DNA of 51,085 nucleotides from positions 1 through 51,085 of IMG/VR virus record IMGVR_UViG_3300029258_000423. One strand, written 5' to 3'. Position 1 is the first letter of the stretch. The number at the start of each line of letters is the position of its first letter. Shown here piece by piece: positions 16,807 through 48,654 of this stretch. The stretch comes from a virus. The notes below the pieces were generated by a model, which saw only the letters and a program-made list of their open reading frames with translations, was not told where the DNA came from and did no database searches. Made by a program: the position numbers and the translations under genes.

Positions 16807-17004
16807 TTACGTCCCTGTCAACGTGAAGTTCTTTGTGCTGGTCCCTTCCAAATCGAAGGCGTCCTCTTGCGTGCCGGTCAAGGTGAGGTTTCGATTGTCC
16901 GTTCCGATCAGGTCGTACCTCTGACTTACAGTTGCCGCAACCGCTTCCGGTGAAGCACCCCAGCCGATTACGTATCGAAGGTAATCAAGGAATCCACTTG
17001 CCAT
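16807..17004 (-). CDS. Small protein with LTGT repeats
   Basis: 65 residues. Three short beta repeats in the C-terminal half: RYDLIGTDNRNLTLTGT, then DAFDLEGTSTKNFTLTGT. The first 25 residues (FLDYLRYVIGWGASPEAVAA) are helical. Its start codon region overlaps the stop of the large fibre gene, and it ends 2 nt before the BppU-like gene, so it is likely translated. Probably an adaptor or fibre-associated protein; family not recognised. Confidence 0.65.
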   Translation of the reverse strand: MASGFLDYLRYVIGWGASPEAVAATVSQRYDLIGTDNRNLTLTGTQEDAFDLEGTSTKNFTLTGT

Positions 17005-20000
17005 TAGGAGACTCCTGTAATCGGGTCAGCCGATGCGTCAACCGTCACGGTGTAGGTTTGGAACGTCGAATCGTCCGAAGGTTTCTTAGCCGTCAGCGTC
17101 GTTCCGCTGATGCTGGAATTCGTGCTAATCATGATGGTGGCACCGAGGCTATGTTTGTCGGCAGTGTCTTCCACGTTCTCCACAGCACGGACTAGAATCG
17201 CGTCGGCCGTGCTGTTGCGTTCTGCCTCCGTCAGCGAAACCCCAGTAGTTACCGAGTTGACTGAGCCAGTCAGATTCCCGGTCCATGTTCCGGTAATGTC
17301 CGTGGTCCACGCCGTAACCAAATCAAGGCCATCAATAGCAAGCTTGAATCCCGTCTTGTCGCTCACGGTTACGCTCGTCGCCGTAATCCATGCCGCATCG
17401 CCGCGATCCCTGATTGCTTGGAGTGCATCATCCGAGCTTGCGAACGTCGACCAGTCTCCAGTAGTGGATGCCAGTTTGGCCATGATGCTATTGTCAACCG
17501 GATCGTCCGAATCAGCCACCGCAACAAGATGGTCGAGTTTCTGAGCGACGAGTGCGTCATTCGCTTCTGATTGAACTTCCGCTTTCATTCCGGTCGACAT
17601 TCCGCCCAAGTCAGTCAGCCCAGCACCCGCGACTCCTATTTCCGATGTGTCAGCAACTATCTCGACAGTCATCAGGTAGGTCGCGTTCCCAAGTGACTGG
17701 AGAGCCTCTTGCGAATCCGTGGTATTGGCGTAGTCGCCAGCACCACTTCCGCCGTCCGCATTGATCTCCGCCAATTCCGTTGCATTGTCGGTTGCTATCG
17801 CCGAATCGCTTCGTGCGATCAATTGCGTATAGGCCAGTAGTTTCGCTTGCGTTGCCATTCCGCTTTGAATCTCCGTCACAGCATCCGCCGCAATTGCGTC
17901 AGCAGTAATCGAATCAGTTGCGAACGTCGCAGCCACAAGAGCATCCGCAGCAAATGCGTCCGCCGTAAACGCTCCGGTTGCGATGGAGCCAGCGTCGATT
18001 GCATCGTCTGCGATTGCATCGGCCGTTATGGCATTGGAAGCAATCGCTCCAGAATCAATTGCGTTGTCAGCAATGGCCCCAGCGTCGATAGCGTTGTCCG
18101 CGATAGCATCTGCCGTAATCGAATCAGTGGCGAACGTCGCAGCTACAAGAGCGTCTGCCGCGAAAGCATCCGCAGTGAATGCTCCCGTCGCGATAGAGGC
18201 CGCATCAATGGCGTCGTCAGCAATCACTGCCGACGTGATGGTGTTGTCACCCATCGAGATGACGACAGATTGATTCGTTCCGTCAGTCACCGTCGATCCG
18301 GTGCTAGTGTCAGTGAGCGACGTAGAATCGCCGTACAGGTTCACGACTGCCGCAGTAGCCGTTCCGTCAATCGTAATCGGTCCAGTGATTCCAACGAATT
18401 GAACCGTCTCACTGCCACTCAGCGTTACGGTAAGTGCCCGAGTGATTCCGCGAACCTCAACATCCGCACCACCTGTGATGATTGTGGTTCCGCCACCGAC
18501 AACCACCTCATGGCTCATGGTGCAATCAGAATCGAGCGTGATGTGTGCTCCACCCTTCCAGTCACGGTTATTGACTCCAACCGCTCCACCCTCACCAGAG
18601 AAGTCGAAGTAGGGCGTTCCAGATCCAGCCACTAAGGAAACGCATTCGACGAATACGTATTGTCCGGTTCCACTCGACGTAACAGGCGAGCCTGAAGTCC
18701 CCGCGAATCCACACCGAACCGCGTAGCACGCCGGAAGCGACGTTCCTGCATTGATCTCACAGTCCTCGATAAGGACGTTGCTTCCTGTTCCGGTTCCACT
18801 GATCGAAGCGTTGTAGAATTTCGCGTGCGTGACAACTTGGCTTCCGAGCGAGAGATTGAACAGGCCATCGCCGAGAAGAGCGTAGTGCGTGCTGTCTCCG
18901 GTAAGCGTGATTGTCGAATCATTCGAGATGATGAACTTGTCGAATCGCAATTGACTATTCAGAGTCAGAGCATCGGCCCAGTTGTCGACCTTGTTATCAG
19001 CGACACCGTTTACATTGACAATGCTTCCAGATTCACCGTTATTCGTGTCGACCCAGATCGCACCGTTCTGGTAACCTGTCGTGCTGCCGGTTTGCGTGTA
19101 GCTGACGACGATCTGGTCAATCAGCATCTCCGTATTGGCCTCTAATGAAGACCCCTGAATGCCGACTTTCACCTTGCCGCTTGAATCAACGTGCCGAGCA
19201 AACAGCGTAGCCACTTCCGTTGTATCGTTCGCCGACGTGCTGCCGTTGATTCCCGTAAACGCGGTCCCCTTCACAACCTCGAATGAAGTCGTGTCGTTAT
19301 TGTACGCAACGATGTCAACTGTATCGCTTCCACTCGGAGGTGACCCCTCATCGAGTCGACCATTGACAGAGACTTCTACCGGAGTGGCAGTTGTGCCGAT
19401 GTCCATCTGATAGTAGTAATCAAGCGTTCCGGCCGCGTTCGTAATTCCGTGGTAGACTCCGTCAATATTGCTGGCGTTTGCGAATGTGCCTGTAGTCTGA
19501 GTGCCTGTCGTAAGCGTGTAGGATTCAGCGTCCTGGTTGATTGCAGAACCGCCACCACTGATTCCGCCAATCTGACTCGATAGCGTTTTCAGTGTGTAGG
19601 TAGCAGAACCGTCCTCTTCCCGTGCCAGAATCGTCGTGCCAGAATCAGCTTTCGCAAGTGGGTAAGCAGTCGATTCGTCGTACTTTCCGGAAGTAATTAC
19701 GTCGTCGCTCAAAGCTGCCGTATTGACATTGAGGTAGTCATTGCCGTCAGCCGTGGCACTGACTCCAAGCACCTCCGTGATGTTCGCGTTGACAGGTGCG
19801 GTGCGAAACGAACCGATGAATCCTGTTGGGTTCTGCGAATCAACCGCTAGAGTTGCGAAGACAGCATAAGTCGCACTGCTGCCGAATCCATTGCCACCGG
19901 TAGCAGCGATCGCCACTTCGTAGCATCCAGACGGGTATTCGATAGCAGTCCCGGTCGTGCTCAGTAAAGTTGCCGATCCGTTATAGACAGGGTCCGCCCC

Positions 20001-40097: not shown

Positions 40098-41039
40098 TCA
40101 CTTGAATGTAGCTCCACCCAATTCAAACGCCGCCTCCGAATCCTCCACGTCAATCTCTTGTGCGTTCAGCCACCCACGTAAATCCTTGGCTCCGCCAGGA
40201 AGCATCCACCATTCCACTCGCCTCTTCAGCCGTGCCCTTAGCTTCTCAGCCGTTTGCCTAGCACCGAATTTGCCAGGCCAACACAACTGACATCCCGTGC
40301 AATTCAGCTTGTGCCTCTTGCGTGCAACCTCAGCCAAGTCTTCGTGTTTCTTCCTGTCACGCTCGCCAAGCACCACAATCCGTCTCTGCTTATCAATTCG
40401 ACGTAACATCGGAACCAGGTAATTCATCCCGCCCACATTCGACGGACGCCCAATCACGCTCAGCCCCAACGTCAATCCTGCTGCCGTGTCACTGCCACCC
40501 TCTACAATGTAGACAGGCCCACCGTACTCGTTTCCATCAGCCGCATAGCTCAGTCCGCGTCTACTGCCAGGCACCTGCAACTTCCCTGTCCCGTTCACTG
40601 GCTCTACCAATCTTCGACTGATTCCAACTACCAGTCCACTCGAATTCCTTTCCGGAAAGCTCCAACACCATCTGCAAGCCAGTTCCCCATATCCGACTCG
40701 CAGCTCGTTCAGGCTCGCCGTAGACACACCTAGTTGTTCTGCTAACCGTTTCATGTCTCCGCCCGCATTCCGCCACATCCTACGTGCTTGCGGTTCCCAT
40801 TTCGCGTGAAGCTGCTCATCGGTTAATCGTTTCTTCTTATGTCGAATCACCGAAGGCACTGATTTGACGTCGTCTCCGAGATTGTGAATCCATCCACCCG
40901 CATCGCCTTTCGCAGGCTTGTCTGACTCCACTCGCATGCAATACGCAACTCCTATGGAAACTGTACACCAATCCGACTTCCCACATATCGGACACGGTTT
41001 GTCTTTCGTTACACGCTTCCATTCAGACGGCGAATCCAT
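40098..41039 (-). CDS. DNA primase with zinc finger and Toprim domain
   Basis: 313 residues from ATG 41039 (AAAGGA seven bases upstream). Zinc finger at the N-terminus: CPICGKSDWC and AYCMRV (C16, C19, C25, C34). Toprim: VYIVEGGSDTAAGL (about 176-189) with the catalytic Glu in VEG, and VVLGERDRKKHEDL (about 227-240), in which the usual DxD is ERD. CTGCQLCWPG (near 251) may be another metal site. No helicase domain is fused, so it would pair with a separate helicase, possibly the SF2 one upstream. Its mRNA has a 0.5 kb leader. Confidence 0.88.
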   Translation of the reverse strand: MDSPSEWKRVTKDKPCPICGKSDWCTVSIGVAYCMRVESDKPAKGDAGGWIHNLGDDVKSVPSVIRHKKKRLTDEQLHAKWEPQARRMWRNAGGDMKRLAEQLGVSTASLNELRVGYGELACRWCWSFPERNSSGLVVGISRRLVEPVNGTGKLQVPGSRRGLSYAADGNEYGGPVYIVEGGSDTAAGLTLGLSVIGRPSNVGGMNYLVPMLRRIDKQRRIVVLGERDRKKHEDLAEVARKRHKLNCTGCQLCWPGKFGARQTAEKLRARLKRRVEWWMLPGGAKDLRGWLNAQEIDVEDSEAAFELGGATFK

Positions 41040-41500: not shown

Positions 41501-41566
41501 ACCCCCCCCACCCATTTGAAGCAAAGAGCAGCACAGATTGTGCAAGACTTTTTGGGCGGGGGGGAG
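41501..41566 (-). promoter_or_regulatory. Structured leader element 4 (C-run/G-run stem)
   Basis: On the minus strand CTCCCCCCCGCCCA (41553-41566) can pair with TGGGTGGGGGGGGT (41501-41514), 14 bp with G-U pairs, enclosing a GCACA-ATC-TGTGC hairpin. It begins about 30 nt after the promoter start. It resembles elements 1-3 in layout but no U-run follows. Confidence 0.6.
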
Positions 41567-41603
41567 TTGTTTCATTTGAATTTGCCTCTTTGCTTCATTC
41601 GCA

Positions 41604-41631
41604 ATCATAGCGAATCGTTTCGTTCTGTCAA
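41604..41631 (-). promoter_or_regulatory. Promoter for the primase leader
   Basis: -35 TTGACA at 41626-41631 (perfect), spacing 16, -10 TATGAT at 41604-41609 (5 of 6). The -35 overlaps the stop codon of the gene before. Transcription would begin near 41,597. Confidence 0.8.
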
Positions 41632-41864
41632 GTGGAATCCTCGGAATCATCCACAATAAGTGCTGACGCTGCTCCGAGCGTATCGGATAGAATCGCCATC
41701 GCCTGAGCTACGGAATTGGCTTCGGGCCACGATTCAACAATCGCCATTGATTCAGAGAACGCTTCACCGTACTCGTCTTTTGTTTCCAGGATAGCGGCCA
41801 GCGTGCTCGCATCGCTAGATAGGGTCCTTAGTGCTTGTGTTGTCTCTTGGAAGTTGTCATCCAT
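41628..41864 (-). CDS. Small acidic helical protein
   Basis: 78 residues from ATG 41864, overlapping the upstream stop by 8 nt. TTQALRTLSSDASTLAAILE, then SESMAIVESWPEANSVAQAM and ILSDTLGAASALIVDDSEDS. No domain recognised. Its stop codon overlaps the -35 of the next promoter, so transcripts end or are refreshed here. Confidence 0.7.
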   Translation of the reverse strand: MDDNFQETTQALRTLSSDASTLAAILETKDEYGEAFSESMAIVESWPEANSVAQAMAILSDTLGAASALIVDDSEDST

Positions 41865-42186
41865 CTGATTCTTCCTTTTCTGATTCTCGTTTCGCCGCAA
41901 GAGCCTTCCGAATCGCTTCCTCCCGAGTCGCACCACAAACCATTCCGCAACCGCGTGCTACGATGCACCACCGATATTCGAGATTCTGTTCGGTGAAATG
42001 ATTGATCTGACAGAATCCATTGTCCGTGCTCAATTCTTCCACGGCGTCGAGAATACCTTGCAGCCTGTCAATCTCGTCGGCTGCTTCCAGCATGGTTGGG
42101 CCGCATCCACAATCATACATCTCGACAGTGTTCCTGTCGGGTTCCCCTGCCAATTTCCGAAACTCTTCGTTATCGAATTCACTCAT
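41857..42186 (-). CDS. Small Cys-containing protein, unknown
   Basis: 109 residues from ATG 42186 (RBS GGAGCGATTCCG). NTVEMYDCGCGPTMLEAADE (20-39), IDRLQGILDAVEELSTDNGF, CIVARGCGMVCGATREEAIR then KALAAKRESE. The last part resembles the C-terminal module of the 37.8 kb protein (T..EAI.KAL.AKR..E.). A longer reading to a GTG at 42309 would run through leader element 3 and is less likely, though the GTG lies exactly at the predicted transcript start. Confidence 0.7.
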   Translation of the reverse strand: MSEFDNEEFRKLAGEPDRNTVEMYDCGCGPTMLEAADEIDRLQGILDAVEELSTDNGFCQINHFTEQNLEYRWCIVARGCGMVCGATREEAIRKALAAKRESEKEESDG

Positions 42187-42205: not shown

Positions 42206-42279
42206 AAAAATCCTCCGACCGACCAATGTGACACAAACACGCCGCATAGAATGCGGCAGAACTTGTGGCCGGTCGGAGG
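42206..42279 (-). promoter_or_regulatory. Structured leader element 3 with U-run
   Basis: CCTCCGACCGGCCA (42266-42279) pairs with TGGTCGGTCGGAGG (42212-42225): 14 bp, one G-U. Inside is a perfect GCCGCAT-TCT-ATGCGGC hairpin (42241-42257). Directly after comes A TTTTT (42206-42210). This is a terminator shape, placed 20 nt before the next gene's start and 30 nt after the promoter start: an attenuator or a structured RNA with an exposed GGAGG. Confidence 0.78.
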
Positions 42280-42305
42280 GTGTTTCGTCAGTAGCTCTGT
42301 TTGTG

Positions 42306-42551
42306 TCACCTGGAATTATGGCAGAATCCGTGTCCGTTGTCAATAGTGATTTCAGGCCAACCGAATTCTTTCATCATCGAAACGTATTGCCCGTCAGGTC
42401 CATCCGGACGAAGCTCCGTCAGGATCTTCCGTAATTGTTCCACAGCCACTTCCGGCGTAGGACCGATTCCGTTAGGCGGAACTCCAGGAAGCTGAATCGG
42501 TTCAGCACGCCAGAGTCCGCGTTTCGTTTTCTGTGTTACTCTGATTATCAT
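42306..42551 (-). CDS. HicB-like small protein, paralogue 1
   Basis: 81 residues from ATG 42551. IIRVTQKTKRGLWRAEPIQL (2-21) then PGVPPNGIGPTPEVAVEQLR, PDGPDGQYVSMMKEFGWPEI. The first 45 residues resemble the HicB antitoxin fold start (short beta-beta: G.W.A....LPG....G.T.EEA...L). It is paralogous to the 43.4 kb protein over its whole length. No HicA toxin partner is near, so a stand-alone role (inhibitor or regulator) is more likely. Its 3' end contains the promoter at 42.3 kb. Confidence 0.75.
   Translation of the reverse strand: MIIRVTQKTKRGLWRAEPIQLPGVPPNGIGPTPEVAVEQLRKILTELRPDGPDGQYVSMMKEFGWPEITIDNGHGFCHNSR
42315..42343 (-). promoter_or_regulatory. Promoter before leader element 3
   Basis: -35 TTGACA at 42338-42343 (perfect), 17-nt spacer, -10 CATAAT at 42315-42320 (5 of 6). 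Transcription start expected near 42,308, right at an in-frame GTG. Lies inside the end of the HicB-like gene. Confidence 0.85.
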
Positions 42552-43610: not shown

Positions 43611-45824
43611 TCAAAACTCTTCTTCCGACGAAGCCATTGACCTGCGGCGTTTCTGTCCGATTTCAATCAGCTTCGCATCTCGCCCCATGCCACACTTCAC
43701 CATCTTCCTTCCGGCATCAGTCAACGCCGCGTCGGTCTTTGCTGACTGCAATATCTTTGTCATCTTGCTCCGGAATTCGTCCGGTTTCATTCTGGCGGAA
43801 ATTGCCAATGTCGCATCCGCTGGCGACTTGCACCACGACACGTCGATTCGTTTCCATGCCGCGAAACTCACCTGCTTGCCAGACGGACCGTTACGCTTCC
43901 AATTGTCCTCACCGATTCCTGTTTCGTGCGTAGCCTGTTCCGCCGTCTCTCCAGACAATAGCTTATCAATCAAACGGCCTGCCTGCTTCTTTGTTAGCGA
44001 GTAATCCACAATCTTGACTCCCAGCGACTCCAGAAATCCGTACTGAGAATCGGAAGCTATGCGAGGGTCTGCCGTTGCTGAATGGCCAACATCATGCACG
44101 GAATATTCTACGTCGGCGTTGGCCTTAGCTCGACGTTCAAAGTCTTCCCTAGCTCGACGTTCAGCCTCATCTTGCTCGCGTTTGATTCGTTCCTTCTCTT
44201 CGGTGTCTTCCATCTCGGCTCGGTCTATCGCATCTTCAACGTCGCCGCCTTCTTCCTCCAGAATCTCTTGGGCACGTTCGACAATTCCATCGTCAAGACC
44301 TTCCGAATAGATCAGTGCTGTCGAAGCACAATCGTCAAGGCCGGTCACGCCAACCAGGTCTACGATCAGGCAATTCGGCTTGCCTGATTCCGCGATTGCC
44401 TTCCGTCGTTCCTCTGGCGTTTCGATCTTACACAAGTCACGTATCAGCGACTTTGCAGGACGGCAACCCCGACCCTTCATCTGTTCGGCCAACGAGGAAG
44501 CTGCCTTACTGACCGGCCGGAAGATTGCCACACACCCGATGTCTGGATCGTTGTATCCTTCCCTTGCAAGTCCGACCACAACCAGAACTTGAAACTGTCC
44601 GGTCTGATGTCCGTCGTACACTTCCTGACGGTCCTGCGGTCGTGTGGAGCCGTTTATGTGCTTCGCCTGTTCTCCCGACTTCGTAATATGCTCATCGGCA
44701 ATCATTGTGCCGCATTCGCATTTCGCTCCGTCGCCGATAAGAAGCTTCGGAAACCATGCCGCCTTCTGGCATTCCGGGCACACTGCTTCGGATCTCGCGT
44801 TAATGAATCTGGCTACATTCTGAGCCATCTCGATTCCAGGACAGAATACCAACGTGCGACGGTCTCCCATTAGGTCAAGCAGCGGCTGACATAGCTTCGC
44901 AAGCGTTCCCTCTTCACCGAGTACCCGCTCTAATTCCGCATCGTCGAAGTCCCCAGCAACACGCTTCAGATTCTTAAAGTCGACTCCCTCGACGCTAATG
45001 TATTTCTGCTCATACGGAACCGCGTAGCCATCTTTCACAGCACATGTCTTCGACCGATGAAACAGCGGGTAATCTGCCGCCACTGCCGGAAACATTTGCG
45101 ACCCAATAGACACGCCGTCCGCACGCTTTGGCGTTGCCGTCAACCCGAGTTGTTTCGTGTTTGGGTTCTCCCAAAACCAGTCAGTAAGATAGCCGACCGA
45201 CCGAAGCTTACGTACGTGGCGATGTGCCTCATCGAAGCATAGCATCCAGTTTAGATCAGGATCGAATCGGTGCAGACGACTCCACTTGTCGCCTTTTGCT
45301 TTCGGGTCCTGTTTCAACTCCTCGATCTGGTCGCGTACATGTTCGGTGCTGATCCTTCCATTGCTCAGCATATTCAGAAACGAATTGGCTCTAGCTTTCC
45401 ATAGTGGCCCAAGGTCGTCGATTCCATATTCTTCAGACAACCGTTCTCTTTGCTGTTCTGTAACTTCCGGTGCAAGCAGCAATGAAGCCCTTGACGCCAC
45501 GACAACCGAATCGGCCGCGTGTGCTCGTTCACGCTCCATCTCGATTCCTGGAACGATTCCAAGGAAGTCTTTCACCTCTTGAGCAAACTGCCACACAAGC
45601 TGCTTCTCATAGCTTATGACCATCACGCGGTAATTGTCGCCGCGTGCAAGCCATGTGCCTGCAATCATACACGCGGTCGGTGTCTTGCCAGTGCCTGTTG
45701 CAAGGCGAACCAATACGCCACGTTCGCCAGAATCCCACAGACGAAACGATTCGTCGTGAGCTGTCTGTTGATAATTTCTAGCAACAAACTGAGTCAGTAT
45801 CGGAGCTTCCGGGAATAGTTCCAT
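43611..45824 (-). CDS. SF2 DEAH-box helicase (ResIII/XPB-like)
   Basis: 737 residues from ATG 45824 (TGATG overlap). Motif I VRLATGTGKT at 39-48, II CFDEAHR (196-202), III LTATP (228-232), and VI EQMKGRGCRP (near 470). A zinc insert CPECQKAAWF...CECGTM lies at about 354-385 between the two RecA domains. Residues about 535-600 are a charged coiled coil (EEKERIKREQDEAERRARED). The C-terminal 150 have no known fold. Likely DNA replication/recombination helicase of the phage; it may cooperate with the primase gene downstream. Confidence 0.93.
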   Translation of the reverse strand: MELFPEAPILTQFVARNYQQTAHDESFRLWDSGERGVLVRLATGTGKTPTACMIAGTWLARGDNYRVMVISYEKQLVWQFAQEVKDFLGIVPGIEMERERAHAADSVVVASRASLLLAPEVTEQQRERLSEEYGIDDLGPLWKARANSFLNMLSNGRISTEHVRDQIEELKQDPKAKGDKWSRLHRFDPDLNWMLCFDEAHRHVRKLRSVGYLTDWFWENPNTKQLGLTATPKRADGVSIGSQMFPAVAADYPLFHRSKTCAVKDGYAVPYEQKYISVEGVDFKNLKRVAGDFDDAELERVLGEEGTLAKLCQPLLDLMGDRRTLVFCPGIEMAQNVARFINARSEAVCPECQKAAWFPKLLIGDGAKCECGTMIADEHITKSGEQAKHINGSTRPQDRQEVYDGHQTGQFQVLVVVGLAREGYNDPDIGCVAIFRPVSKAASSLAEQMKGRGCRPAKSLIRDLCKIETPEERRKAIAESGKPNCLIVDLVGVTGLDDCASTALIYSEGLDDGIVERAQEILEEEGGDVEDAIDRAEMEDTEEKERIKREQDEAERRAREDFERRAKANADVEYSVHDVGHSATADPRIASDSQYGFLESLGVKIVDYSLTKKQAGRLIDKLLSGETAEQATHETGIGEDNWKRNGPSGKQVSFAAWKRIDVSWCKSPADATLAISARMKPDEFRSKMTKILQSAKTDAALTDAGRKMVKCGMGRDAKLIEIGQKRRRSMASSEEEF

Positions 45825-46654
45825 CACACCATCTGATTGTATTGCTGTTTCGTTACTCGGCCGTGACCCTTGCACGCACATTTCTTATTGTCGCCGTCGC
45901 ACAATGGACACGGAACCGGCTTCGTGGCTCTCAGAGTATTCATTGCTTCCTTGAACTTTCGCTCCCACCCGATCCTCGCATTCAGTTCGTCCATGGTAGG
46001 GCAGTCGTCGAGTTCTTTCTGTGCCTCGGTGACCATCTTTGAAAGCTGTCGAGCCCATGATTCGATAGACGACGATTCCCTTTTGCATATGTCCTCAATC
46101 GTTTCATCGTCCGGGAATTCCTCTTCCGGTTCCTCTGTGCCGGTTTCTGGATCATCAGGCACAATGCACGACGCACAAGATCCATCCTCAAATACGTCCG
46201 TCCCTCCACAGTCTGGACAGGGTTCGGAAACAGGCTCGGAATCCACGTCAATAATCTCTTCGGATTCCGGCTCCGTCGCTGGCTTAGGCTTGGGTGGTTT
46301 CGACGGTTTCGGAGGCTTCGGGTTCGCCGCCTCTTTGGCCGCTTTTGCTGCTCCAGCCAATGAGCCTTCCAGAAGCAAAACCGCAGAACGCTGCGTTTTT
46401 GGGAGTGCCGAAACGTCCCTATGAAATTGCATGTAAAACTGTGCTGTCCTTAGACTTCCGTCAAATAACCGCTTGCATTCATCCTCCCAACTTCCGTGGG
46501 GTACGCCTTTCTTTGCGGCCGCCAATTCCTCGCCAGTTTCGAGTGCATGATTCGTTGCAGAACCGAGGTCTTTTTCGACGTATCCGTGGAGCACATTCGC
46601 CTTGCGGAAATGGTCGTGGACTTCCATCGGTAGATTGGATTTCTTCTTAGCCAT
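45824..46654 (-). CDS. DUF3102-like protein with zinc fingers
   Basis: 276 residues, RBS CGGAGG. N-terminal ALETGEELAAAKKGVPHGSW then EDECKRLFDGSLRTAQFYMQ is the DUF3102-like pattern (G..L...K....HG.w..w......s.rTAq.yM.l). A proline/lysine linker (KPPKPSKPPKPKP) joins CPDCGGTDVFEDGSCASC, then an acidic helical part, and CPLCDGDNKKCACKGHG at the end: two zinc modules. Possibly a DNA- or helicase-binding factor. Expressed from promoter 2 with leader 2. Confidence 0.82.
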   Translation of the reverse strand: MAKKKSNLPMEVHDHFRKANVLHGYVEKDLGSATNHALETGEELAAAKKGVPHGSWEDECKRLFDGSLRTAQFYMQFHRDVSALPKTQRSAVLLLEGSLAGAAKAAKEAANPKPPKPSKPPKPKPATEPESEEIIDVDSEPVSEPCPDCGGTDVFEDGSCASCIVPDDPETGTEEPEEEFPDDETIEDICKRESSSIESWARQLSKMVTEAQKELDDCPTMDELNARIGWERKFKEAMNTLRATKPVPCPLCDGDNKKCACKGHGRVTKQQYNQMV

Positions 46655-46669
46655 TGCGGCCTACCTCCG

Positions 46670-46744
46670 AAAAGAAAAAGCCTCCACCCCGTGTATGCCC
46701 AAACCACAGACAGAGAATCTGCCCAGAATTTGCACGGGGGGAGG
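46670..46744 (-). promoter_or_regulatory. Structured leader element 2 with U-run
   Basis: CCTCCCCCCGTG (46733-46744) pairs with CACGGGGTGGAGG (46681-46693) with one bulge, and the minus strand then reads CTTTTTCTTTT (46670-46680). The following CGGAGG is the RBS of the next gene. Same plan as elements 1 and 3: terminator shape in the 5' leader, about 30-40 nt after the promoter start. Confidence 0.78.
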
Positions 46745-46780
46745 TGATTCGCGTTTGTGTTGTGATTCAGGCATAACGGA

Positions 46781-46809
46781 ATCCTAGCAACATCGAGTGG
46801 AATTGTCAA
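46781..46809 (-). promoter_or_regulatory. Promoter before leader element 2
   Basis: -35 TTGACA at 46804-46809 (perfect), 17-nt spacer, -10 TAGGAT at 46781-46786 in the context GCTAGGATTCC. The same -10 context is found in the 48.6 kb promoter. Confidence 0.83.
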
Positions 46810-46817
46810 TAGGAATC

Positions 46818-47204
46818 TCACAAGGTCATCGGGTCGCACGCCTTCACCTCGAAATTAAGGTGCTTAATCAACTGGTCCACGGACACCGGATTACCGTTCA
46901 GTCTCACGCCATCTTCCGGAAGTTCCTTTGCCAATACAACGAGATAGAACCCCCAATAGTCATAGCCATGGCTGCGTGCGACTTGTCTAAGCATCTTGTC
47001 GAGAACCTTGAATGTCAACCGCTGAGCGTGATACAATGCTCCGTTGTATCTCTTCTCTTCGACAAGCATCAGTCGTTTCTTTTTGAAGTCTTCAAACACA
47101 TAATCCAGGTTCGACACGGAAAGTCCATCGCGGCTGCTTTTGCAGTTCTCCGGAATCCATAAGCCAAACGGAGTGAAGTCCTCCTTGCGTTGTGGTTTTC
47201 GCAT
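46818..47204 (-). CDS. Small nuclease-like protein (PD-(D/E)xK-type candidate)
   Basis: 128 residues from ATG 47204 (a GTG at 47210 also possible). FTPFGLWIPENCKSSRDGLS, then VSNLDYVFEDFKKKRLMLVE and EKRYNGALYHAQRLTFKVLD. The LD-Y-V-x-x-D-(F/Y)-x-x-x-x-(L)-x-L-(V/I)-E-x-K arrangement (Asp then E-x-K) with following Q and helix suits the PD-(D/E)xK nuclease fold found in short phage proteins. Could be a recombination or DNA-degrading nuclease. Moderate confidence. Confidence 0.65.
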   Translation of the reverse strand: MRKPQRKEDFTPFGLWIPENCKSSRDGLSVSNLDYVFEDFKKKRLMLVEEKRYNGALYHAQRLTFKVLDKMLRQVARSHGYDYWGFYLVVLAKELPEDGVRLNGNPVSVDQLIKHLNFEVKACDPMTL

Positions 47205-47206
47205 AA

Positions 47207-48490
47207 TCACTCAACCCTCCATACGACGATTTCTCTCGTAAGAACGAGCGGCGTCTTGTGTTCCTTCGACCACTCGACCATCTGTGCATTACACTGTTGG
47301 CTCTCATATGGAACGGAATAACGCATGGCAACAGGCATCTTGACGGATCGCAACATGTCACCGACGTGGTCCGTGAACTGCCTATCTGGAGCGTTCCATT
47401 GTGTCGGTTGGATTATCAAGGCGACGTATGCGTCCGCCAGTTTCTTAGCGAATCCACTGATGATTCCATGCAGCGATTTATTGAATGCGTCAAGCTCCAT
47501 GTTGGCCAGGTCGGTTGCGTCCTTGCTGTATTCACCTTCCGCTTGCTTCCAGTATGGAGGGTCAAGGTAAACGAGCCTTACGTCTTTCCATTGCGGAGGC
47601 TTCGGTAGTTTGACGCGACAATCATCGGACACTAAGTCATGGCACCGTATTTCATGCTCACGTTCAACGATTGGCTTCCGGTCTGAAACGAAGTATCTTC
47701 GGAATCGCTTTTTGCATATGTCGATTGTCGATCCTCCGCCAGCAAACGGATCGACGACAATATCAAACGGTTCGGTATAGAGGTACAGAAGGTTATCGAG
47801 CCACTTGACTTCCGAGTTCCCGAAGTGACTAGAACCGCTTGTCTTCTCTTGCTGTTTCCATACGTTGTAAATCGGTGGCTCGAATTCCACGGCGTGGCTT
47901 GCGGCGGATTGGTGAGGTTTAGTCAAAGCGGCAATGTCGCCATATTGACTTAAACAGCGGTCTACGTCCTTTTGTGATGTCCCCACCTCATCCGCAATTT
48001 CCTGTTGAGTCGAACACGCCAGCCACATATCGAAGATCCGCCGGTTGCGTCTCTCCTTGTCGTCCTTGTCCGTGCGTGACAGCCAGTCGCGGATCGTTCG
48101 ATCAGAGACGCTAAGAATCTTCGCGAGTTGCTTCTTTTTTTCGCTTCGCTCCTTTGTTGGCGTTGCGTTGTATATCCGTTTCGCCATGTCCCTTTTGTCG
48201 GACAAGCTAAGCTGCAATCCGTGCGTTGCATTACGCTCAATCGCCAGTTCCAAGAGGTGAGCGTCGGATTCCGTCTCAGTCACAACGACTGGAATATCGC
48301 CTATCTCTTTCTTTTTGTGGCTCGTCCATCTATGCCACCCATCGATCAACTCATTGTGTTGATTGACTTCAATCGGCGGAAGAACCGAGAGGTCTGCCGC
48401 GTACTTCTGGACCGTTTCCGCACTGGTTTCGATCCGAGGGTACAGATCATCGCGGAATACAACATCCGCAGTCTTGATGGTTTTTGTCAT
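47207..48490 (-). CDS. ParB-like domain fused to DNA methyltransferase
   Basis: 427 residues. N-terminal ParB/Srx-like domain (1-95): DLYPRIETS, LPPIEVNQHNELIDGWHRW with GWHRW at 51-55. Helix-turn-helix at about 118-140 (KKKQLAKILSVSDRTIRDWL). Methylase: VVDPFAGGGST at 245-255 and LVYLDPPYWKQ at 306-316. The SAM-binding FxGGG motif precedes DPPY, i.e. alpha/gamma-like order, probably N6-adenine. Such ParB-MTase fusions in phages protect DNA from restriction. Its promoter and leader (elements 1) lie upstream. Confidence 0.9.
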   Translation of the reverse strand: MTKTIKTADVVFRDDLYPRIETSAETVQKYAADLSVLPPIEVNQHNELIDGWHRWTSHKKKEIGDIPVVVTETESDAHLLELAIERNATHGLQLSLSDKRDMAKRIYNATPTKERSEKKKQLAKILSVSDRTIRDWLSRTDKDDKERRNRRIFDMWLACSTQQEIADEVGTSQKDVDRCLSQYGDIAALTKPHQSAASHAVEFEPPIYNVWKQQEKTSGSSHFGNSEVKWLDNLLYLYTEPFDIVVDPFAGGGSTIDICKKRFRRYFVSDRKPIVEREHEIRCHDLVSDDCRVKLPKPPQWKDVRLVYLDPPYWKQAEGEYSKDATDLANMELDAFNKSLHGIISGFAKKLADAYVALIIQPTQWNAPDRQFTDHVGDMLRSVKMPVAMRYSVPYESQQCNAQMVEWSKEHKTPLVLTREIVVWRVE

Positions 48491-48520
48491 TCGTCCTACC
48501 TTAGCTCAGCAAGGCTATGC

Positions 48521-48590
48521 AAAGAAAAATCCTCCCCACGGGTTATGACAAGCACGGGCCGAGATTCGGCCGAGAACTTCCGTGGGGAGG
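48521..48590 (-). promoter_or_regulatory. Structured leader element 1 with U-run
   Basis: CCTCCCCACGG (48580-48590) pairs perfectly with CCGTGGGGAGG (48531-48541); inside is GGCCGA-ATC-TCGGCC (48557-48571). The minus strand continues ATTTTTCTTT (48521-48530). It lies between a strong promoter and the ParB-methylase start at 48490. Terminator shape in a leader points to attenuation or anti-termination. Confidence 0.82.
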
Positions 48591-48625
48591 CGTGTCTTAT
48601 GTGATTCATTGCTTGTCATACCAGA

Positions 48626-48654
48626 ATCCTAGCGTCTTCACTGTCTTGTGTCAA
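48626..48654 (-). promoter_or_regulatory. Promoter before leader element 1
   Basis: -35 TTGACA at 48649-48654 (perfect), 17-nt spacer, -10 TAGGAT at 48626-48631 in GCTAGGATTC. Start of transcription expected near 48,619. Confidence 0.84.

Follow-up and report, generated by a model that had tools for sequence, protein, structure and literature searches.

A putative 5'-terminal pseudoknot behind the strong early promoters of a tailed phage

Few cis-acting RNA devices are, to our knowledge, known at the 5' end of phage transcripts, the put element of phage HK022 being the textbook case. T4 gp32 controls translation from its own mRNA, and the leader of gene 32 is a small pseudoknot that serves as an operator for one gene. 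Here we analysed the 51,085-base virus record IMGVR_UViG_3300029258_000423 (the window, meaning the whole stretch of DNA at its full length), a tailed phage that encodes a portal, Mu F-like head proteins and a tape-measure protein and carries its main genes on the minus strand. We describe in it a leader element, hereafter the knot, in which two long helices, A and B, interleave with a hairpin C between them (strand order A-B-hairpin C-A'-B').

Like the gene 32 leader, the knot is a predicted pseudoknot in the 5' leader of a phage mRNA, but here it is present in four promoter-tied copies. Put and the knot are both RNA structures of ~70-95 nucleotides (nt) that head early phage transcripts, occur once per early promoter and, by their position, point to action in cis; however, put consists of adjacent stem-loops (PMC9378689) whereas the helices of the knot interleave in all copies, blastn against phage records found no sequence relation, and put is a known antiterminator, the knot a structure predicted from sequence. 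As in known stabilising leaders (PMC3997798), the 5' end would lie within a helix, here at the predicted transcription start, although those leaders are simple hairpins or ribosome-binding stabilisers and the knot is a three-helix candidate pseudoknot of constant geometry found at several promoters. Minimal hepatitis delta virus (HDV)-like, or theta, ribozymes (PMC10879173) have the same strand order, P1-P2-P3-P1'-P2', but the knot has neither their catalytic-cytosine junction nor a cleavable 5' flank, its helices are longer, and 5-9 nt separate P2 from P3. Finally, a G+C-rich helix followed by a U-tract, as in intrinsic terminators and attenuators, occurs in three of the four window copies, yet a terminator stem is expected to have a short loop, and the B-B' pairing was called by a terminator scan in no copy.

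The first-pass annotation of the window had pointed to a repeated module at 48.6 and 46.8 kb, a TTGACA-N17-TAGGAT promoter followed by a CCTCCCC stem and then by a gene. A pattern search recovered this promoter exactly twice in the window (48654-48626 and 46809-46781, both on the minus strand), against 0.01 expected from shuffles, and the stems are indeed present at both sites (11/11 base pairs (bp) at 48.6 kb; 12 bp with one bulge at 46.8 kb), followed by AUUUUUCUUU and CUUUUUCUUUU, respectively, and then by the genes. The repeated module is thus real, but it occurs in four copies, not two, and its predicted fold is not a hairpin. In both leaders, M1 and M2, the arms of another long helix alternate with those of the stem described, which makes the fold a putative pseudoknot. 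In M1, an inverted-repeat search paired 48620-48610 with 48554-48544 as helix A (11/11 bp), and 48590-48580 pairs with 48541-48531 as helix B (11/11 bp). In M2, helix A joins 46775-46761 to 46708-46694 (15 bp, G-U included), and helix B joins 46744-46733 to 46693-46681 (12 bp with one bulge; CCTCCCCCCGTG with CACGGGG(T)GGAGG). The same architecture was found twice more, as M3 (42343-42206; alternating A, B, A' and B' arms at 42309-42212) and M4 (41631-41502; arms at 41597-41502), and each of the four copies lies directly behind a TTGACA promoter. Their parts are as follows.

48626..48654, minus strand: M1 promoter, TTGACA-N17-TAGGAT (pattern search)
48610..48620, minus strand: M1 helix A 5' arm, TATGACAAGCA, beginning where transcription is predicted to start, 5 nt past the -10
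48580..48590, minus strand: M1 helix B 5' arm, CCTCCCCACGG, an inverted repeat pairing with CCGTGGGGAGG
48557..48571, minus strand: M1 hairpin C, GGCCGA-ATC-TCGGCC, preceded by the linker AAGTTCTC
48544..48554, minus strand: M1 helix A 3' arm, TGCTTGTCATA (inverted repeat)
48531..48541, minus strand: M1 helix B 3' arm, CCGTGGGGAGG, followed by ATTTTTCTTT
46781..46809, minus strand: M2 promoter, TTGACA-N17-TAGGAT (pattern search)
46761..46775, minus strand: M2 helix A 5' arm, TATGCCTGAATCACA (interleaved-helix scan)
46733..46744, minus strand: M2 helix B 5' arm, CCTCCCCCCGTG
46709..46723, minus strand: M2 hairpin C, GGCAGA-TTC-TCTGTC, preceded by the linker CAAATTCTG
46694..46708, minus strand: M2 helix A 3' arm (interleaved-helix scan)
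46681..46693, minus strand: M2 helix B 3' arm, CACGGGGTGGAGG, with one bulged T, followed by CTTTTTCTTTT
42315..42343, minus strand: M3 promoter, TTGACA-N17-CATAAT (sigma70-like scan)
42298..42309, minus strand: M3 helix A 5' arm, GTGACACAAACA (inverted repeat, interleaved-helix scan)
42266..42279, minus strand: M3 helix B 5' arm, CCTCCGACCGGCCA (inverted repeat, interleaved-helix scan)
42241..42257, minus strand: M3 hairpin C, GCCGCAT-TCT-ATGCGGC, preceded by the linker CAAGTTCT
42228..42239, minus strand: M3 helix A 3' arm, TGTTTGTGTCAC (inverted repeat)
42212..42225, minus strand: M3 helix B 3' arm, TGGTCGGTCGGAGG, followed by ATTTTT
41604..41631, minus strand: M4 promoter, TTGACA-N16-TATGAT (sigma70-like scan)
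41586..41597, minus strand: M4 helix A 5' arm, TGAAGCAAAGAG (inverted repeat, interleaved-helix scan)
41553..41565, minus strand: M4 helix B 5' arm, TCCCCCCCGCCCA (interleaved-helix scan)
41531..41543, minus strand: M4 hairpin C, GCACA-ATC-TGTGC, preceded by the linker AAAAGTCTT
41517..41528, minus strand: M4 helix A 3' arm, CTCTTTGCTTCA (inverted repeat)
41502..41514, minus strand: M4 helix B 3' arm, TGGGTGGGGGGGG, with no U-tract after it

Across M1, M2, M3 and M4, the A-to-B linker measures 19, 16, 18 and 20 nt, and the linker from B to hairpin C, which holds RTTCT (GTCTT in M4), 8, 9, 8 and 9 nt. Hairpin C itself is 15, 15, 17 and 13 nt long, with triloops ATC, TTC, TCT and ATC, and is followed by A' after 2, 0, 1 and 2 nt and, from A', by B' after 2, 0, 2 and 2 nt.

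We wrote a detector of interleaved helices (A-B-C-A'-B') and applied it, unsupervised, to 4.9 Mb of viral sequence, with dinucleotide shuffles as the control. The four window copies scored 85, 75, 74 and 64.5, and shuffled sequence gave no match at 60 or above across the 4.9 Mb. Within the window these copies rank first; in the whole scan three of them are the top three matches, and the fourth is outranked solely by a second lineage, L109/L197, and by L067. The L067 match (16874-17007, score 71) has a weak helix A and no promoter and was not counted as a copy; that so strong a match should lack a promoter indicates that the background in real DNA is somewhat above that of shuffles. Nor was L024 (4363-4454, score 60) counted, which has a perfect TTGACA-18-TATAAT, but whose helix A would start inside the -10. 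Behind this promoter (L024 4330-4454) stand a strong hairpin and what may be a weak form of the knot.

In the second lineage, which is unrelated to this phage, the detector placed the knot of L109 (IMGVR_UViG_3300037484_000300, an AT-rich contig) at 6078-5975 on the minus strand, behind TTGATT-N16-TATAAT. Its helix A has 11 bp, helix B ~23 bp with one bulge and hairpin C 7 bp with the triloop TCC, and the linkers measure 19, 5, 0 and 0 nt. L197, a relative with 83% protein identity, has retained the leader: the first pair of helix A is lost, the second has gone from G-C to A-U, a compensatory change that supports the predicted helix A, and one U-G of helix B has become C-G. In both contigs helix A begins 8-9 nt after the -10. 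What the two lineages have in common is architecture and position, not sequence, and we read this as recurrence rather than as established common descent. The gene behind the L109 knot gives weak matches to replication-initiation families, and directly behind it an iteron-like GTACTACGGAAACCGTAGTAGTCAGGTA is repeated (5520-5340, minus strand).

Every tested cell pairs in helix A (50/50, with two-sided changes at 9/10 positions) and in helix B (35/35, at 7/7 positions), although the registers were set by structure, so that these counts lean towards structure. Helix sequences vary while the shape is kept, which argues for selection on structure, as had been proposed for the stems in the first-pass annotation. 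In MAFFT alignments A1-A3 the helices are not kept in register. Within the window, pairing between the two A arms of one copy amounts to -14.6 to -19.4 kcal/mol, whereas a 5' arm matched with the 3' arm of a different copy gives -6.5 or weaker. Ordinary, nested folding draws only B plus hairpin C. In all six copies (M1-M4, L109 and L197) the best nested fold, at -32 to -41 kcal/mol, is weaker than the helix energies added together, at -47 to -55 kcal/mol, which indicates that helices A and B can coexist. In this calculation the knot is predicted to be favoured or level even after a pseudoknot penalty of ~10 kcal/mol, a value that we assumed. Taken together, these results suggest that the leaders very probably fold as pseudoknots.

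In the 38-51 kb region, the sigma70-like scan ranks the promoters of M1-M4 as its four best, with agreement to the consensus at 10-11 of 12 positions, a level that only three sites reach in the rest of the window (10/12). Every strong early promoter found has the knot behind it, in one copy; a common feature of every early leader had been anticipated, and this much stands, but its reading as a terminator is not supported. Helix A starts 5, 5, 5 and 6 nt past the -10 in M1, M2, M3 and M4, at about the first or second base expected to be transcribed, and the 5' end predicted from the -10 position would be flush with, or at most ~3 nt from, a helix of 10-15 bp in all six copies. B' and the start codon are separated by anything from 9-40 nt (M1-M3 and L109) to >450 nt (M4). 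The element is anchored to the promoter and not to the gene. Since only its distance to the promoter is fixed, the 5' end of the RNA is the most likely place from which it acts, with decay or the polymerase that just transcribed the knot as its target.

RppH-type enzymes favour single-stranded 5' ends, the Bacillus subtilis enzyme requiring at least two unpaired nucleotides; RppH and RNase E both depend on such ends, and 5' structures stabilise mRNAs (PMC3997798). Protection from decay is thus the simplest mechanism, and we tentatively favour, at somewhat less than even odds, a 5'-terminal knot that acts in cis as a decay-resistant 5' cap. Each strong minus-strand early promoter would give an RNA whose first ~95 nt form one compact pseudoknot, with helix A beginning at nucleotide 1 or 2 of the transcript, helix B interleaved with it and hairpin C between B and A'; A' and B' are 0-2 nt apart, so that the two helices could stack. 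Folding would take place during transcription, A closing first and B' pairing while it emerges, and the U-tract behind B' in three of the four window copies may pause polymerase while the knot closes. From the RNA 5' end, the knot would then act in cis, hiding the 5' triphosphate end and bracing it against the pyrophosphohydrolase and the RNase E or RNase J of 5'-end-dependent decay, and this protective, RNA-made cap would let phage transcripts outlast others.

Several points weigh against this proposal. A plain 5' hairpin would also protect, which leaves the interleaved helix, the constant linkers and the RTTCT-like linker motif unexplained, and the constant geometry together with the kept linker bases suggests specific recognition. 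We found the knot in two lineages only (this phage and L109/L197), and homologues of the gene behind M1 in 22 other contigs, L004-L014 included, have no clear copy of the leader. The element seems to be an RNA device not described before, one whose target is its own transcript. It may, as a possibility that we would not yet call probable, belong to a phage RNA class of its own, that of 5'-terminal pseudoknots that are self-sufficient, occur in unrelated phages and behind each strong early promoter of a phage, and alter what polymerase or ribonuclease does with the transcript. If so, a compact knot of conserved shape and free sequence would be a portable 5' module for long-lived or termination-proof transcripts. 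Promoter-anchored pseudoknots of this kind would be missed by hairpin-based annotation, since nested folding and terminator scans catch at most half of each.

Because geometry and linker bases are kept, an action like that of put is conceivable, in which the knot binds the polymerase that made it and renders it resistant to pausing or termination with no protein needed; we consider this rather unlikely. Put binds RNA polymerase at the beta' zinc-binding domain and thereby suppresses pausing and termination. The proposed action would follow the logic of HK022 put, a cis-acting RNA element at the start of early transcripts, and one knot stands behind each of the four best promoters of the early region. 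Variable helices around a kept geometry and a kept unpaired linker before hairpin C are what a shaped binding surface would lead one to expect, and behind M4 polymerase must cross >450 nt, with a risk of termination, before it reaches a primase-like start codon. However, HK022 put is two adjacent stem-loops in a V and not a pseudoknot (PMC9378689), the HK022 genome has no match to the architecture, and the region has no excess of terminator-like sites over shuffles (12 found against 13.2 expected).

Attenuation, in which B-B' plus the U-tract would be a conditional terminator decided by helix A, by a ribosome on a leader frame or by a phage factor, we regard as unlikely. Five U follow B' after one base in M1, M2 and M3, which chance would hardly produce at ~25% T, and the same three leaders have an ATG or GTG frame that opens at the predicted start and extends past the U-tract. 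No U-tract follows B' in M4, L109 or L197, however, so that termination, while possible for M1-M3, is not the shared function of the element. In M4 such a frame lasts 8 codons, and L197 lacks a start codon at that place. Moreover, the arms of A and B overlap in no copy, so the element is not built as an either/or switch, and the B-B' loop (~38-54 nt) contains one strand of the interleaved helix and is far longer than is usual in terminators. For these reasons of loop and U-tract, the first reading of the stem as a terminator hairpin is not supported.

We think it improbable that the knot is an operator through which a bound protein of phage or host origin, or a bound ribosome, controls translation of the next gene. 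B' contains GGAGG in M1-M3, in M3 9 nt ahead of the ATG, the kept linker and loop bases could serve as contacts, and four copies could make one regulon; but the distance from knot to start codon is not kept, position being fixed to the promoter instead, a separate GGAGG lies downstream in M2 and a separate AGG in M1, and M4 has no likely start anywhere near it. Likewise, the early suggestion that the GGAGG arm is protected could apply to three copies only. A minimal HDV-like (theta-type) ribozyme or its relic is very improbable, despite an identical strand order without P4, as in the minimal delta-like ribozymes of phages (PMC10879173), and a tRNA-like element beside M4, for the junction before P2', whose first position should hold the required catalytic cytosine, is 0-2 nt long (AC, none, AT, AA, none and A in the six copies), helix A at the predicted transcription start leaves no upstream RNA to cleave off, Rfam gives no match, and the tRNA lies 5' of theta ribozymes but the tRNA-like element 3' here.

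Further copies were sought by several routes. The promoter-pattern scan of viral contigs (29 matches) and promoter-plus-linker scans recovered solely contig L003, which is identical to the window across their overlap, extends 2,281 bases past it and represents the same phage; L109 first surfaced through a chance match elsewhere in its contig. The phage has few sequence relatives in phage databases. No copy of the knot was found in relatives of the portal and primase or in plasmids, and no architecture match above a score of 50 in HK022, lambda, phi29 or T4 130-168.9 kb (39 kb). With the leaders as queries, blastn found no match among 50,697 phage records, and Rfam (4227 families) gave none to the leaders and no ribozyme match, the few sub-threshold matches being to other families. 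The literature searched, from which most subscription journals were outside coverage, holds no description of the element. A different leader is present in the AT-rich contigs L279, L285, L288, L291, L297, L298 and L302-L304, where a TTGACA promoter is followed by CGCCCCCACTCC...AAGTTCTGACGTGGGGGTATTTTTTT; this has an ordinary terminator shape, without a second helix.

The genes directly behind the first three leaders are the following.

47207..48490, minus strand: gene behind M1, 427 amino acids, N6/N4 DNA methyltransferase domain
45824..46654, minus strand: gene behind M2, 276 amino acids, weak matches solely to PHROGs of unknown function
41857..42186, minus strand: gene behind M3, 109 amino acids, no family found

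Near the predicted starts of M1, M2 and M3 lie ATG, ATG and GTG (48619, 46774 and 42309, minus strand), opening frames of 34, 37 and 150 codons, the last of which continues in phase into the gene behind M3. A leader peptide was set aside as a candidate: M4 offers just 8 codons, L197 lacks a start, and the M3 frame differs relative to the kept linker. The tRNA-like element directly behind M4 (41490-41415, minus strand) has a 7-bp acceptor, GGCCGCA/TGCGGCC, and a perfect T-arm, GATGG-TTCGATT-CCATC; its D and anticodon parts are poor, Rfam tRNA-Sec gives 22.8 bits against a cut-off of 47, and ARAGORN does not call it. Upstream of the primase-like ATG at 41039, the ~375 nt that separate it from the M4 knot (41415-41040, minus strand) contain no convincing gene, and their predicted folding is not clearly better than that of shuffles. 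A short tandem run of GACGGCTACGGC-type units was observed at ~43065-43013 (minus strand), and similar GGC-rich runs also occur near the methyltransferase gene in L008 and L012.
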